From contig NZ_CP064356.1 of assembly GCF_018141545.1 (NCBI RefSeq), positions 1,687,001 to 1,751,000 on the forward strand: a DNA stretch of 64,000 bases, in the 5' to 3' direction. Within the stretch, counting starts at the first letter, position 1, and each line of letters starts with the position of its first letter. Positions 15,033 to 38,503 of the stretch are shown here, piece after piece. A program made the position numbers and the translations under genes. Source of the stretch: Miltoncostaea oceani. Its GTDB lineage: Bacteria; Actinomycetota; Thermoleophilia; Miltoncostaeales; Miltoncostaeaceae. The notes under the pieces are model-generated. The model saw only the letters and a list, made by a program, of their open reading frames with translations. It made no database searches and was not told the origin of the DNA.

Positions 15033-15047
15033 GTCCTGCTCACCGAG

Positions 15048-15120
15048 TAGCGCATACGGGATTTGAACCCGTGTTACCGCCGTGAGAGGGCGGCGTCCTA
15101 GGCCCCTAGACGAATGCGCC
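15048..15120 (-). tRNA. tRNA-Glu (CTC)
   Basis: A 73-base cloverleaf on the minus strand: acceptor GGCGCAT paired with ATGCGCT (the first pair is G-U), D-arm GTCTAGGGGCCTAGGAC, anticodon stem CCGCC/GGCGG around loop CTCTCAC (anticodon CTC), T-arm ACGGG-TTCAAAT-CCCGT, discriminator A. No CCA is encoded. The D-arm and anticodon arm match other bacterial tRNA-Glu genes closely. Confidence 0.9.
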
Positions 15121-15151
15121 ACGGACCGGCACCGGACCATGGGGGAAGAAG

Positions 15152-15222
15152 CTGGGGGAGGAGGATTCGAACCCCCGCTACCGGGGCCAGAACCCGGCGT
15201 CCTACCGCTAGACGATCCCCCA
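15152..15222 (-). tRNA. tRNA-Gln (CTG)
   Basis: A 71-base cloverleaf on the minus strand: acceptor TGGGGGA with TCCCCCA, D-arm GTCTAGCGGTAGGAC, anticodon stem CCGGG/CCCGG around TTCTGGC (anticodon CTG), four-base variable loop, T-arm GGGGG-TTCGAAT-CCTCC with one G-U pair, discriminator G, no encoded CCA. It lies 31 bases upstream of tRNA-Glu and they are probably cotranscribed. Confidence 0.88.
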
Positions 15223-32850: not shown

Positions 32851-33007
32851 GAGGTGCCCTGCAGTGTTCGCCACCGGCTCACACCTTGAGCCAACTAGAG
32901 TGACCAGGGAGACGGCGTCGCGTCCCCGCGTGAGCGCGGACGGCCCGTCACCCACCTGCTACCGCAGGTTCAAGTCACAGGCCGGAACGGCACCGCGGGG
33001 CGACCTC
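32851..33007 (+). ncRNA. ssrS: 6S RNA
   Basis: About 157 bases between a minus-strand gene and a lipoprotein gene, not coding. The ends pair as in 6S RNA: GAGGTGCCCTGC (32851-32862) with GCGGGGCGACCTC near 32995-33007. Conserved 5' blocks TGTTCGCC (32865-32872) and CCTTGAGCC (32884-32892) and 3' blocks GGTTCAAG (32967-32974), CACAG (32976-32980) and CGGCAC (32988-32993) appear in the same order as in E. coli 6S RNA. The centre can stay open as the bubble that mimics a melted promoter. 6S RNA binds housekeeping RNA polymerase and restrains it in stationary phase. Exact ends are estimates. Confidence 0.82.
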
Positions 33008-33018
33008 TTCGTGATCTC

Positions 33019-33564
33019 GTGAGGCCGCGTCGCGCGCTCGCCGCGCTCGCCCTCGCGTCGGCCACCGTCGCGCTCGCCGCCGGCTGCGGCGGGGGCGGCG
33101 ACACGTCCGCCGACCTCCCGGCCGCGACGGTCCCGCCGGCCGTGGCCGCCCCCGTCGCCGTGGCCCCCGTGGCCACCGGTGGCGTCGTCACCCCCGGACC
33201 CCGCACCCCGAAGCCCGTCGTCGCCGCGCTCGCCGGCAGCAAGGTCGTGGTCGTCGCCTTCCTGGTGGACGGCCCCGCGGACGACGCCGACGTCGCCGCC
33301 GCCCTGCGCGCCGTCCAGGCCGACCCCGGCGCGGCCCGTGCCGCCGACGTGTTCGTCTACCGGGTGGGCAAGGACAAGTTCGGCGATCTGGCGGACCTCC
33401 TCGGCGTCACCGGCACCCCGTCGGTGGCCGTCATCGGACGCGACCGCACCCTCGTCAACCGCTGGGACGGCCTCAGCGACGCCGAGATCCTGCGCCAGTC
33501 GATCTCCGACGCCGCCGACACCGCCGCCCGCAACCGCGGCGCGGCCGCGACGGCGGCACCCTAG
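33019..33564 (+). CDS. Thioredoxin-fold-like lipoprotein without CxxC
   Basis: A 181-residue protein with a lipoprotein signal peptide (lipobox LAAGC, Cys23), a glycine/alanine/proline linker to about residue 70, and a domain resembling a thioredoxin fold: VVVVAFLVDGPADDADVAAA, then VFVYRVGKDKFGDLADLLGV, and TGTPSVAVIGRDRTLVNRWD with the thioredoxin-like T-P loop. There are no cysteines at the usual redox site, so it is unlikely to be a disulfide enzyme. It begins 12 bases after the 6S RNA 3' end at a GTG. Confidence 0.65.
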   Translation: MRPRRALAALALASATVALAAGCGGGGDTSADLPAATVPPAVAAPVAVAPVATGGVVTPGPRTPKPVVAALAGSKVVVVAFLVDGPADDADVAAALRAVQADPGAARAADVFVYRVGKDKFGDLADLLGVTGTPSVAVIGRDRTLVNRWDGLSDAEILRQSISDAADTAARNRGAAATAAP

Positions 33565-33632: not shown

Positions 33633-35111
33633 GTGCCGCCCTATCCCCCCGAGGCCATGCGCCATCTGGCGTCCCCCGCGGGCGCCGGGCCGATGGCCGG
33701 CGCCGACGCCGTCGGCGAGTCCGGCAGCGCGTCGTGCGGCGACCTCGTGCGGATCTCCCTGCGGATCCGGGGCCGCCGCGTCCGCGAGGCCCGCTTCCAG
33801 GCCTTCGGGTGCGGCGCCGCGACCGCCGCCGCGAGCGCCGCGTGCGCGCGCCTGACCGGCGCGACACTCGACGACGCCCTGCGCCTCGGGCCCGCCGACC
33901 TCGACGGCGACCTCGGCGGGCTCGGCGCCGACCGCATCCACGGGCCCGACATCGTGTCGGACGCCGTCGCCCGCGCCCTCGAGGCGTGGCACACCGCCCG
34001 GCTCGGCGACCACGGCATCCCCGCCCGCGCCGACCGCGTCGCCGTCGCGATGAGCGGCGGGGTCGACAGCGCCGTCGCGGCCCTGCTGCTGCGCGACGCC
34101 GGCCTCGACGTCGTCGGCGTCACGATGCGCCTCTGGCACGACCCGGGCGCCGCCGCCGCCGAGCGGTCGTGCTGCTCGCCCGAGACGGTCCGCATGGCCC
34201 GCGCCGCCGCCCACGCCCTCGGGATCCCGCACGTCACCCTCGACGTCGCCGAGCGCTTCCGCTCCGGCGTGGTCGAGGACTTCATCGCGGGGTACCGGGC
34301 GGGCCGCACGCCCAACCCGTGCGTGACGTGCAACGGGACGGTGCGGTTCTCGGTGCTCTCCGACGCCGCCGCCCTCGTCGGCGCGCGCCTCATGGCGACC
34401 GGCCACTACGCCCGCGTCGACCGCGACGACCGCGGCCGCGCCCTCGTTTCCCGCGCGCGCGACGCGGGGAAGGACCAGAGCTACATGCTCGCCATGCTCG
34501 ACGGACGCGACCGGGAGCGGCTGCGCTTCCCGCTCGGCGACCTCACGAAGGACCGCGTCAGGGCGATCGCCCGCGCGGCGGGCCTGCCCGGGGCGGAGGC
34601 CGTCGAGAGCCAGGAGGTCTGCTTCGTCGGCGAGGGCGGGTACGCGCCGTTCCTCGAGCGCAGCGGCCTCGCCCCGCGCCCCGGCCCGATCGAGGACGCC
34701 GACGGACGCCGCCTCGGCACCCACACCGGCCACTGGCGCTTCACCGTCGGCCAGCGGCGCGGCATCGGCATCGCCGGGGCGGAGCCCCTCTACGTCCTCT
34801 CCACCGACGCGGCGCGCAACGCCGTCGTCGTCGGGCCGCGGGAGATGCTGAGCACCGCCGGCCTCCGCCTCGACCCCGTCCGGGTGCACGGCGCCCTGGA
34901 CGACGGCCCGCTCGAGGTCCGGGTGCGCTACCGTGGCCGCGCCCTGCGGGGCCACGCGGCGGAGGAGGGGGACGGGGTGCGCATCTCGCTCGAGGATCCC
35001 GCCGACGGGGTCGCCCCGGGGCAGACCGCGGCGCTGTACCGCGACGGTCGCCTCGTCGCGGCCGGTACCATCACCGACCCGGCGCCCGACACCCACCGGA
35101 GGACGCACTAG
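33633..35111 (+). CDS. mnmA: tRNA 2-thiouridylase MnmA fused to an IscU-like domain
   Basis: A 492-residue two-domain protein. Residues 1-122 resemble the IscU/NifU scaffold: SCGDL gives Cys35 and Asp37, FGCGAATAAASAAC gives Cys60, but the third ligand position (Gly104 in IHGPD) is not a cysteine. Residues 135-490 are MnmA: PP-loop SGGVDS (141-146), NPCVTCN (Cys230, Cys233), ESQEVCFVG (Cys330) and the C-terminal beta-barrel. MnmA adds sulfur at position 2 of U34 in tRNA-Lys, -Glu and -Gln. Cys230 stands where E. coli has Asp99, giving three cysteines as in iron-sulfur dependent enzymes. The next gene starts at the last base of its stop. Confidence 0.9.
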   Translation: MPPYPPEAMRHLASPAGAGPMAGADAVGESGSASCGDLVRISLRIRGRRVREARFQAFGCGAATAAASAACARLTGATLDDALRLGPADLDGDLGGLGADRIHGPDIVSDAVARALEAWHTARLGDHGIPARADRVAVAMSGGVDSAVAALLLRDAGLDVVGVTMRLWHDPGAAAAERSCCSPETVRMARAAAHALGIPHVTLDVAERFRSGVVEDFIAGYRAGRTPNPCVTCNGTVRFSVLSDAAALVGARLMATGHYARVDRDDRGRALVSRARDAGKDQSYMLAMLDGRDRERLRFPLGDLTKDRVRAIARAAGLPGAEAVESQEVCFVGEGGYAPFLERSGLAPRPGPIEDADGRRLGTHTGHWRFTVGQRRGIGIAGAEPLYVLSTDAARNAVVVGPREMLSTAGLRLDPVRVHGALDDGPLEVRVRYRGRALRGHAAEEGDGVRISLEDPADGVAPGQTAALYRDGRLVAAGTITDPAPDTHRRTH

Positions 35112-35683
35112 TGGACTGGTCCGACCTGCTGAAGCTGGCCCTCTCGATCTTCCTGATCCTCACGGGGGTCGGGCTGGCCTACCTGTTCCTCCGCATGGCG
35201 GGCGTGTTCGGCCGCCTCGGGACCTCGGTGACCCGCATCACCGACGAGGTCGTGCCGATCCTCAACAAGGCGCAGACCACCGTCGACGGCGTCAACCTCG
35301 AGCTCATGCGGGTCGACGAGATGATGAAGACGGCCGTCGGGGCCACGAAGGGCGCCGAGAAGACCGTCCAGACCGTGTCGAGCGCCGTCACGAAGCCGGT
35401 CCGCAAGATCACGGGCCTCGCCGCCGGCGCCCGCGAGGCCGTCGCCACGCTGCGCGCCCGCCGCGCCGCCGACGCCGAGGCCGCGCGCGTCGCGACGCCG
35501 TCCCCGCACGGACCGACGTCGCCCGCCGAGGCCGCCGCCGTGCCGCCGCCCGCGCCCCCGGCGCCGCCCGTGCCGCCGGCCCCGCCCGTGCCGCCGCCCG
35601 TCACCCCCGCCGCGTCCGCGACCGCGCCGCCGCCCCCGGCGGACCCGCCGCCCGCCGACGCCAAGCACGACAGCCCCTACTAG
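35111..35683 (+). CDS. DUF948 membrane protein
   Basis: A 190-residue protein. One membrane helix at about 7-28 (LKLALSIFLILTGVGLAYLF), then a helical region with heptad-like spacing (VTRITDEVVPILNKAQTTVD, VNLELMRVDEMMKTAVGATK) typical of DUF948, and from ~130 a disordered alanine/proline tail with repeated PPAPP and PPVPP. The GTG overlaps the mnmA stop. In actinobacteria a DUF948 gene normally precedes alaS, as here. The role is unknown; a coiled-coil envelope protein is likely. Confidence 0.8.
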   Translation: MDWSDLLKLALSIFLILTGVGLAYLFLRMAGVFGRLGTSVTRITDEVVPILNKAQTTVDGVNLELMRVDEMMKTAVGATKGAEKTVQTVSSAVTKPVRKITGLAAGAREAVATLRARRAADAEAARVATPSPHGPTSPAEAAAVPPPAPPAPPVPPAPPVPPPVTPAASATAPPPPADPPPADAKHDSPY

Positions 35684-35941: not shown

Positions 35942-38503
35942 ATGACCACGAACGAGATCCGCGAGGCCTTCCTCGCCTACTTCGCGCGCCAGGGGCACCT
36001 GCGCATCCCCTCGGCGTCCCTCGTCCCCTTCGAGGACGACCCGTCGGTGCTCCTGACGATCGCGGGCATGCAGCCGCTGAAGTCGTACTTCATGGGTGCG
36101 GACACGCCGCCCCGGCCGCGCATGACCAGCTCCCAGAAGTGCTTCCGCACGAACGACATCGACCAGGTCGGGCACACCGCCCGGCATCTCACCTTCTTCG
36201 AGATGCTCGGCAACTTCTCGATCGGCGACTACTTCAAGGACGACGCCATCCGCTTCGGGTGGGAGGTCTCCACCGAGGTCTTCGGGCTCGACCCCGAGAG
36301 GATCTGGATCACGGTGTTCGAGGGCATGGACGGCGTCCCCGGCGACGACGAGGCCCTCGAGAAGTGGGTCGAGCTCGGCGTCCCCCGCGACCGGATCCAG
36401 CGCCTCGGCGAGGCCGACAACTTCTGGAAGGCCGGGCCGACGGGCCCGTGCGGCCCCAACACGGAGCTGTACCTCGACCGCGGCCCGTCGTTCGGCCCCG
36501 AGGGCGGCCCCGCCGTCGGCGGCGACCGCTACCTCGAGTACTGGAACCTCGTGTTCATGCAGTACGAGCGGGCGGCCGACGGGACGCTCTCGCCGCTCCC
36601 CGCGAAGAACATCGACACGGGCGCCGGGCTGGAGCGGATGGCCGCGATCCTGCAGGACGTCCCCTCCGTCTTCGAGACCGACGGCTTCCGGCCCCTGATC
36701 GCCTGGGCGGAGCAGGCGAGCGGGCGCAGGTACGGCGCCGACGGCCGCGACGACCGCGCGCTGCGCGTCCTGGCCGACCACGGGCGCGCGATGACGTTCC
36801 TCGCGTCCGACGGCGTGGTCCCCGGCAACGAGGGCCGCGACTACGTGCTGCGGCGGATCGTGCGCCGCGCCGTGTCCGAGGCCGGCCACCTCGGCCTGCC
36901 GCCCGACGCCGTCGTCGGCCTCACCGGTCCCGTGGTGGACGGCTGGGGCGACGCCTACCCCGAGCTGCGCGACCGCGCCGCCGAGGTGCGCGACGTGATC
37001 GGCGCCGAGGCGGAGCAGTTCGCCCGCACCCTCACCCAGGGCCGCCGCCTGCTCGGCGAGGTCATCGCCCGGTCGGAGGGCACGGTCAGCGGCGAGGACG
37101 CGTTCCGCCTGCACGACACGTTCGGCTTCCCGCTCGACCTGACCCTCGAGGCGGCCCAGGACGCCGGGCTCGGGGTCGACGCCGAGGGCTTCGAGCGCCT
37201 CATGGGCGAGCAGCGCGAGCGCTCGCGGGCCGGCGGCGCCGCCGACGGCGCGTCCGACCTGTCGGAGCGGGTGGCCCTCGTCGCCCGCGAGTCCGCGCCC
37301 GCCGAGTTCGTCGGCTGGGACGACACCGTCGCCGACACCCGCGTCACGGCGATGGAGGAGCTCGGCGACGGCACCGCCCTGCTCAAGCTGGAGCGCTCCC
37401 CGTTCTACGCCGAGGGCGGCGGCCAGGTGTCCGACACCGGCCGCATCGACGGTCCCGACGGCGGCGCCGTCGTCGTCGACGTCATGCGGCTCGGCGCCGA
37501 CCAGGTCCTGCGGGTCCGCCTCGAGCAGGGGCACCTGCCCGTCGGGTCCGAGGTGACGGCGAGGGTCGACGGCCCCCGCCGGCGCCAGACCCAGGCGAAC
37601 CACACCGCCACCCACGTCCTCAACTGGGCGCTGCGCGAGACCCTCGGCCAGGGCGTCCGCCAGGCCGGCTCCTACGTCGGCCCCGACAAGCTGCGGTTCG
37701 ACTTCACCCACCGCGGCCGCGTCGCCCCCGAGACGCTCGTCGAGATCGAGCGCATGGTCAACGGGCGCGTCGACGAGGACCAGCCGGTCGGCTGGGAGAT
37801 CACCGACCGGCAGGCCGCCGCCGACGCCGGCGCGATCGGCCTGTTCGAGGAGAAGTACGGCGAGCGCGTGCGCGTGGTGTCGGCCGGCGACTTCTCGCAG
37901 GAGCTGTGCGGCGGCACCCACGTGTCGCGCACCGGCGAGATCGGGCCGTTCGTGATCACCGCGGAGGCGTCGACCGGCGCCGGGTCGCGGCGCATCGAGG
38001 CGCTCACCGGCACCGCCGCCGTCGCCTGGCTGCGGGACCGCGAGCGCGCCCTGCTCGACGAGGTCGCCGCCCGCGACGAGCGCATCCGCGAGCTGCAGTC
38101 GGAGCTGAAGCGCGCGAAGACGACACGCACCGACGTCGGCGGGCTCGCCGAGCAGGCCGTCACCATCGGCGACGTCCGCGCCCTGGTGGCCCAGGTCGAG
38201 GCCGGTGACATGGACGAGCTGCTCGCCATCGCGGACCGGCTGAAGGGGACGCTCGGCGACGGCGCCGCCGTCGTCCTGGGCGCCGCGTCCGAGGGCAAGG
38301 CCCTGATCGTGGCGAGCCTCGCCCCCGGGGCGGTCGCCGCCGGGCTCTCCGCCGGCGCCGTCATCCGCGAGGTCGCCCCCGTCGTGGGCGGCGGCGGTGG
38401 CGGCAAGGACGCGATGGCGCGGGCCGGGGGCAAGGACCCCGAGCGCCTCCCCGACGCCCTCGCGGCGGCCCGGGCGATCCTGACGGCCCCCCGGGGGGCG
38501 TGA
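35942..38503 (+). CDS. alaS: Alanine-tRNA ligase
   Basis: An 853-residue class II synthetase charging tRNA-Ala. The catalytic core starts EIREAFLAYFARQGHLRIPS, with motif 2 in RPRMTSSQKCFRTNDIDQVG. The editing domain shows NHTATHVLNWALRETLG and CGGTHV, the H-x-x-x-H and C-x-x-x-H zinc ligands that remove misacylated serine or glycine. A coiled coil (LLDEVAARDERIRELQSELK) and a DHHA1 C-domain (GGGGGGKDAMARAGGKDPER) complete it. Length is usual for the family. ruvX overlaps the stop at a GTG. Confidence 0.96.
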   Translation: MTTNEIREAFLAYFARQGHLRIPSASLVPFEDDPSVLLTIAGMQPLKSYFMGADTPPRPRMTSSQKCFRTNDIDQVGHTARHLTFFEMLGNFSIGDYFKDDAIRFGWEVSTEVFGLDPERIWITVFEGMDGVPGDDEALEKWVELGVPRDRIQRLGEADNFWKAGPTGPCGPNTELYLDRGPSFGPEGGPAVGGDRYLEYWNLVFMQYERAADGTLSPLPAKNIDTGAGLERMAAILQDVPSVFETDGFRPLIAWAEQASGRRYGADGRDDRALRVLADHGRAMTFLASDGVVPGNEGRDYVLRRIVRRAVSEAGHLGLPPDAVVGLTGPVVDGWGDAYPELRDRAAEVRDVIGAEAEQFARTLTQGRRLLGEVIARSEGTVSGEDAFRLHDTFGFPLDLTLEAAQDAGLGVDAEGFERLMGEQRERSRAGGAADGASDLSERVALVARESAPAEFVGWDDTVADTRVTAMEELGDGTALLKLERSPFYAEGGGQVSDTGRIDGPDGGAVVVDVMRLGADQVLRVRLEQGHLPVGSEVTARVDGPRRRQTQANHTATHVLNWALRETLGQGVRQAGSYVGPDKLRFDFTHRGRVAPETLVEIERMVNGRVDEDQPVGWEITDRQAAADAGAIGLFEEKYGERVRVVSAGDFSQELCGGTHVSRTGEIGPFVITAEASTGAGSRRIEALTGTAAVAWLRDRERALLDEVAARDERIRELQSELKRAKTTRTDVGGLAEQAVTIGDVRALVAQVEAGDMDELLAIADRLKGTLGDGAAVVLGAASEGKALIVASLAPGAVAAGLSAGAVIREVAPVVGGGGGGKDAMARAGGKDPERLPDALAAARAILTAPRGA

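Follow-up and report, generated by a model that had tools for sequence, protein, structure and literature searches.

An IscU-like domain fused to a C-type MnmA in Miltoncostaea oceani: a candidate built-in sulfur donor for tRNA thiolation

The window, i.e., the whole stretch of 64,000 nucleotides of Miltoncostaea oceani DNA analyzed here, belongs to a 4.54 Mb genome. One stop-free frame of 492 codons runs from a GTG start to a TAG stop at 33633..35111 on the + strand, and its 492 aa product joins an IscU-like domain to MnmA. M1 is invariant across 12 aligned family members, which supports the GTG start. The gene order is fusion, DUF948-like gene, alaS. The DUF948-like gene (35111..35683, +) is a conserved neighbour whose match to DUF948 (E 1.4e-5) lies under the Pfam cut-off; its GTG shares one base with the fusion stop codon and is preceded by GGAGG at 35098–35102. 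The alaS gene (35942..38503, +), recognized by a Pfam match, is found 3′ of many fusions. Upstream lies a lipoprotein-like gene (33019..33564, +) with no Pfam match, a conserved neighbour that adjoins the fusion in families f1, f4, and f6, where the f-codes denote bacterial families in our set of relatives and f1 is the family of the window. By eye, its product resembles a thioredoxin fold without CxxC. A 6S RNA gene (32853–33005, +; Rfam RF00013, 72.8 bits) just precedes the lipoprotein-like gene and lies 5′ of the fusion as well. Elsewhere in the window, tRNA-Glu(CTC) and tRNA-Gln(CTG) genes are adjacent at 15047–15222 (−).

Residues 1–125 (33633..34007, +) form the IscU/NifU_N-like domain, as indicated by Pfam PF01592 (E 2.4e-21) and a match to the structure 4eb5_C. 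The Pfam NifU_N profile covers residues 4–120 at 76.6 bits, against a cut-off of 22, so that the reading of residues 1–122 as IscU-type in the initial annotation stands. The assembly site of IscU consists of five residues: Cys, Asp, Cys, His, and Cys. Cys35-Gly36-Asp37 (33735..33743, +) provides the first two metal-site residues, equivalent to Cys69 and Asp71 of ISCU2; C35 is found in 68 and D37 in 61 of 71 distinct fusions. Cys60 (33810..33812, +), equivalent to ISCU2 Cys95, is present in 66 of 72. At His103-Gly104 (33939..33944, +), the His, equivalent to ISCU2 His137 and found in 58/72 fusions, is kept, and a Gly stands at the place of the third Cys, a position equivalent to ISCU2 Cys138 and E. 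coli IscU Cys106. The chaperone-binding motif of IscU scaffolds is LPPVK. No motif of this type is found in the fusion, which has LGGLGADRIHG at that position.

The MnmA part, residues 132–488 (34026..35096, +), comprises a PP-loop HUP domain, a PRC barrel, and a beta barrel, as judged from profiles and from the structure 2hma. Three Pfam MnmA domains cover residues 135–480 (E 7e-106), and the whole protein scores 354 bits with the NCBIfam MnmA model, above the cut-off of 284. With the single continuous frame, the Pfam and NCBIfam matches establish the proposed fusion of an IscU-like part with MnmA as real. An assembly artefact or a chance ORF was considered and rejected, as the same frame is present in about two dozen family genomes, one of them a single contig, and in 18 MAGs.

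The whole protein has eight cysteines, at residues 35, 60, 71, 180, 181, 230, 233, and 330. The sequence displays the PP-loop SGGVDS at residues 141–146 (34053..34070, +). Cys180-Cys181 (34170..34175, +) is the CC pair of C-type MnmA, each Cys being present in 70 of 72 fusions. Both cysteines of Cys230-x-x-Cys233 (34320..34331, +) are found in 72/72, and Cys330 (34620..34622, +), equivalent to E. coli MnmA Cys199, in 71/71; the CxxC-C of MnmA is intact in all readable fusions. CC-CxxC-C is the signature of C-type MnmA (PMC11784392), and the protein has it together with a PP-loop of the form SGGxDS. The residue calls of the initial annotation (C35, D37, C60, H103-G104, C230, C233, and C330) prove exact. 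Its three-cysteine class of MnmA is right as to C230, C233, and C330 but overlooked Cys180-Cys181, the pair that completes the C-type signature.

AlphaFold confidently models the window protein as two domains in a single arrangement (mean pLDDT 93.6, pTM 0.92), and does the same for a fusion from family f19 (pLDDT 91.1, pTM 0.89). Cys180-Cys181 end a stretch of lower confidence in the window model (mean pLDDT 69, residues 171–180). The best solved relative of the N-terminal domain is A. fulgidus NifU-1/IscU, 4eb5_C (E 4.7e-19), onto which the window model superimposes with Z 22.0 and rmsd 2.5 Å over 135 aligned residues, and the f19 model with Z 22.8 and rmsd 2.1 Å over 133. The MnmA part matches 2hma with Z 41.4 and rmsd 2.4 Å over 349 residues in the window model, and with Z 35.8 in the f19 model. 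With either model, the alignment places the end of A. fulgidus IscU on MnmA residues ~190–210, just past the CC pair, a faint hint that the packing of MnmA onto the domain may be alike in the two proteins.

The fusion is not confined to M. oceani. Its closest counterparts are in genomes labelled Miltoncostaeaceae, Miltoncostaea, or Thermoleophilia. Among 61 relatives, nearly all f1 genomes have a single-frame fusion, and in the exceptions that were inspected the gene is at a contig end or its frame is split; the 18 named close relatives that turned up when genome contigs were scanned are all fused. Fusions also occur in f4, f5, f6, and f7, which belong to the same class, and in one f8 genome; besides Miltoncostaeaceae, five further families of the class have the fusion. 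A 296-genome sample of the phylum added fusions in f12, f19, f51, f68, and f69. The expectation that the same domain order recurs in the phylum is thus borne out across the family, the class, and other families. Three genomes of one group outside the phylum, too few for a conclusion, contain no fusion. One public record (L150) bears the title Bifidobacterium breve MAG but has a Miltoncostaeaceae-type locus and is probably a misnamed bin.

The origin of the fusion can be traced in the gene order of relatives. In f2, f25, and f47, whose nifU has all five site residues, mnmA stands next to a separate nifU-like gene and iscS lies upstream of the two; two f19 genomes have the same layout. In one f25 and one f19 genome, nifU and mnmA share a reading frame and are separated by just one stop codon. 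Where f19 and f8 genomes have the fusion, iscS is its immediate upstream neighbour. The adjacency of iscS, nifU, and mnmA in these relatives identifies an iscS-nifU-mnmA operon as the ancestor of the fusion. On the MnmA tree, the label "fused" needs 8 changes, but grouping all fusions in one clade is not rejected by the AU test (p 0.25). The tree is thus compatible both with one origin followed by losses and with several origins.

In 72 distinct fusions, which are related sequences and so not independent events, all five site residues are found in none, exactly four in 60, and fewer in 12. Of 31 free-standing relatives, 25 have five residues and 6 have four. The third Cys is present in 7/72 fusions versus 28/31 free-standing relatives. 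Thus, the missing third ligand noted by the initial annotation is real (Gly104) but is not the oddity of one sequence; in the sequences at hand, it belongs to a rule of the fused form, which never has the complete five-residue site. The residue that is lost varies. The fusions of f1, f5, f7, and f19 retain C-D-C-H, the last residue being Gly or Ala, and those of f8, f51, and two of the three f4 members retain the last Cys and lack the His. Presence of the last Cys requires at least 5 changes on the MnmA tree. Three free-standing NifU-like proteins (L124, L138, and L139, of f42 and f45) have lost the conserved His and kept the three cysteines. Cys71, in the helix after Cys60, is invariant in 12 aligned f1 members, and nearly all f19 sequences have a C60-x-x-C63 pair. 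These extra lineage-specific cysteines (Cys71 and the f19 residue-63 position) are possible substitutes for the lost cysteine.

Studies of human ISCU2 bear on what the loss means. In free ISCU2, the metal is held by Cys69, Asp71, Cys95, and His137 in a tetrahedral mononuclear site, and Cys138 carries the persulfide received from the desulfurase (PMC11021402). Cys69 is dispensable for persulfidation, and in the C138S variant no other Cys is persulfidated (PMC11021402). The window fusion keeps exactly the four equivalents of the metal site, without that of Cys138. The lost residue is therefore the counterpart of the persulfide acceptor, which makes a role in cluster assembly less likely and one in sulfur donation or docking more so. 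The initial annotation had instead proposed a cluster shared between the domains, with an MnmA cysteine as the missing third ligand. That a ligand is missing is true, and the confident AlphaFold arrangement of the domain pair makes a fixed interface plausible. The four remaining residues, however, make a complete site in free ISCU2, and all three cluster cysteines of MnmA are intact for MnmA's own cluster. A ligand supplied by MnmA is thus not supported, and we regard the shared cluster as very improbable.

A second possibility is that the domain is still a cluster scaffold or carrier that loads the [4Fe-4S] site of MnmA in cis, the third ligand being solvent, a desulfurase cysteine, or a small thiol. 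Its nearest homologues are NifU/IscU scaffolds, the C-type class of MnmA has a [4Fe-4S] cluster that needs loading (PMC8584467), and most fusions retain Cys35, Asp37, and Cys60, all of which would suit a loading role. Nonetheless, every fusion lacks the full site, the LPPVK-type motif has been lost, and the Cys that is gone is the one that accepts the persulfide in ISCU2. In addition, the window genome has, apart from the fusion, a SUF operon with SufS and its own SufU for cluster supply. We consider loading in cis unlikely. The same operon led us to reject the idea that the sole scaffold of the genome was moved into MnmA.

The extent to which the site has eroded differs among lineages and raises a third possibility. 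In f6 fusions, the first Cys is the sole site residue left. In f3, a remnant of ~65 residues has no cysteine and is recognizable by profile comparison (E 6e-7, 92% probability); its bearers (L039, L040, L041, and L043) have MnmA with this shrunken remnant, which is a late stage of domain decay. Two f4 relatives (L049 and L053) have MnmA without any such domain. This grading, from four ligands in f1, f5, f7, and f19 through one in f6 to none in the shortened f3 remnant, while the MnmA cysteines stay intact in nearly all fusions, would fit a domain that is a docking platform only. The desulfurase would then hand sulfur directly to an MnmA cysteine, and the metal site would be structural or a slowly decaying relic; the domain-free MnmAs of f4 are in keeping with it. 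On the other hand, in the main lineages C35 and C60 are within the top ten columns of the domain by conservation, and D37 is within the top twenty, whereas a pure relic should shed all three as freely as the third Cys. A platform role alone therefore has, in our estimate, a rather small chance of being correct.

Which desulfurase could serve the fusion depends on the lineage. The window genome has, elsewhere, a NifS/IscS-like desulfurase gene adjoining a TusA-like gene. The iscS-tusA pair is conserved in the family of the window and lies far from the fusion (L064/L185; genome C1:1262690–1264074), and a TusA-like gene lies ≤1.5 kb from 28 of the 29 f1 IscS loci taken. Since the pair is still there, the suggestion in the initial annotation that the fused domain bypasses a relay is uncertain. 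In f5 and f7 (8 genomes, with C-D-C-H fusions), SufS is the sole Aminotran_5 protein that qualifies as a cysteine desulfurase, the inventory being of Aminotran_5 matches at E 1e-30 or better and one of these genomes having a further, distant member. All of these SufS proteins have a His 19 residues before the catalytic Cys, which by spacing is the position of His354 of Mtb SufS. It follows that a C-D-C-H fusion must work with SufS there, if it works with any desulfurase. The second "desulfurases" of f3 were not included among the sulfur donors, as they score as TIGR01976 desulfurase-like proteins and have no active-site-motif Cys of the IscS or SufS kind. The f3 PLP enzymes concerned are L227–L230, of which the one that was scanned gave the TIGR01976 desulfurase-like score.

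Taken with the retention of the rest of the site, loss of the residue that accepts the persulfide in ISCU2 makes delivery, a role put forward in the initial annotation, the most likely function of the domain. We propose that the converted scaffold docks on a desulfurase and serves MnmA as a metal-gated sulfur donor, a proposal to which we give an even chance. The gene product would be a one-protein tRNA 2-thiouridine synthase made of a C-type MnmA and an N-terminal sulfur-delivery module. The module would be an IscU/NifU-type scaffold that no longer scaffolds, with a four-ligand mononuclear site of Cys35, Asp37, Cys60, and His103 and, presumably, a retained desulfurase-docking face. The proposed steps are as follows. 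The metal-bound domain would dock on the cysteine desulfurase of the cell, SufS or IscS by lineage. As in SufU, docking would detach Cys35 from the metal, whereupon this Cys would accept the sulfane sulfur. The tethered domain would pass the sulfur to MnmA, at Cys330, the CC pair, or the open iron of the cluster. Finally, MnmA would adenylate U34 and insert the sulfur. The precedent is that in SufU the Cys at the position of ISCU2 Cys69 (Mtb Cys40) takes the persulfide after a desulfurase His replaces it on the zinc (PMC10216065). Acceptance of this kind at the Cys35 position, together with the kept four-ligand site, makes the fused domain look SufU-like in its working.

Several observations count against the donor proposal. 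The iscS-tusA pair of the window genome could serve MnmA, and the fusions of f8, f51, and most f4 members keep the third Cys and have lost the His instead. Fusions with Cys35 alone (f6) or a cysteine-free remnant (f3) indicate that the chemistry of the site is not indispensable to every fusion. Moreover, to judge from the ISCU2 results on Cys69 and C138S, a domain without the last Cys may be unable to accept sulfur at all, instead of accepting it on Cys35. By analogy with ISCU2, the persulfide acceptor may now sit on MnmA. In an extended form of this idea, an MnmA Cys (of the CC pair, or Cys330) would be the stand-in acceptor, and the domain-docked desulfurase would feed the thiolation centre through the metal site; scaffold, carrier, and thiolase would be one unit for which SufS or IscS suffices. 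We hold this form to be unlikely.

Each half of the protein belongs to a known family, and a gene pair for the two in one operon is to be expected. What is apparently undescribed is their fusion, with one scaffold residue repeatedly lost: in the open-licence literature, we found no description of a fusion of MnmA with IscU, NifU, or SufU. The partners are joined in one polypeptide, and a single scaffold residue has been removed in several lineages. One expressed protein with single-residue variants can thus be used to test whether MnmA obtains from an IscU-like partner sulfur, a cluster, or no more than a docking site. The fusion suggests that a scaffold is convertible into a sulfur donor, and the arrangement may let a single protein channel sulfur into tRNA.

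Among known systems, the SufU zinc sulfurtransferase shares with the fused domain a four-ligand mononuclear site that includes the CGD cysteine, the persulfide acceptor in SufU, and SufS is the sole donor in some fusion families. The SufU ligand set, C-D-C-C, is present in f8, f51, and most f4 fusions, whereas in the lineage of the window a His takes the place of the third SufU Cys, giving C-D-C-H with IscU-type spacing. The second and third ligands are 62 residues apart in the window genome's own SufU versus 44 in the fusion. This shorter spacing, together with a score under the cut-off of the NCBIfam SufU model (32.4 versus 92.5 bits), indicates that the fused domain is not a SufU. With IscU/NifU N-domain scaffolds, e.g., 4eb5 and ISCU2, the domain shares the fold, the length, the CGD and GC motifs, the His, and operon ancestry with iscS and mnmA. 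It differs from them in having neither the third cysteine nor an LPPVK-type motif and in being tied covalently to MnmA. Scores with the NCBIfam IscU, NifU, and SufU models are far below the cut-offs; NifU_clost gives the top score among the scaffold models, 77.5 versus 187.9 bits, and IscU gives 49.6 versus 192.4.

E. coli MnmA with its TusABCDE relay has the same catalytic domain and reaction as the fusion but is D-type (DxxC-C), has no fused domain, and receives sulfur via free carriers. Its sulfur route, and whether it uses a [4Fe-4S] cluster or a persulfide, are openly disputed (PMC11784392). Closest are the C-type MnmAs of the Thermus thermophilus type, with which the fusion shares the PP-loop, three cluster cysteines, the CC pair, the fold, and the predicted s2U34 reaction. 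T. thermophilus MnmA has a catalytic [4Fe-4S] cluster and an oxygen-sensitive activity, and for the C-type class sulfur delivery and cluster use are described as unclear (PMC8584467). The C-type MnmAs of the cited literature are separate proteins, whereas the fusion adds an IscU-like domain in front.
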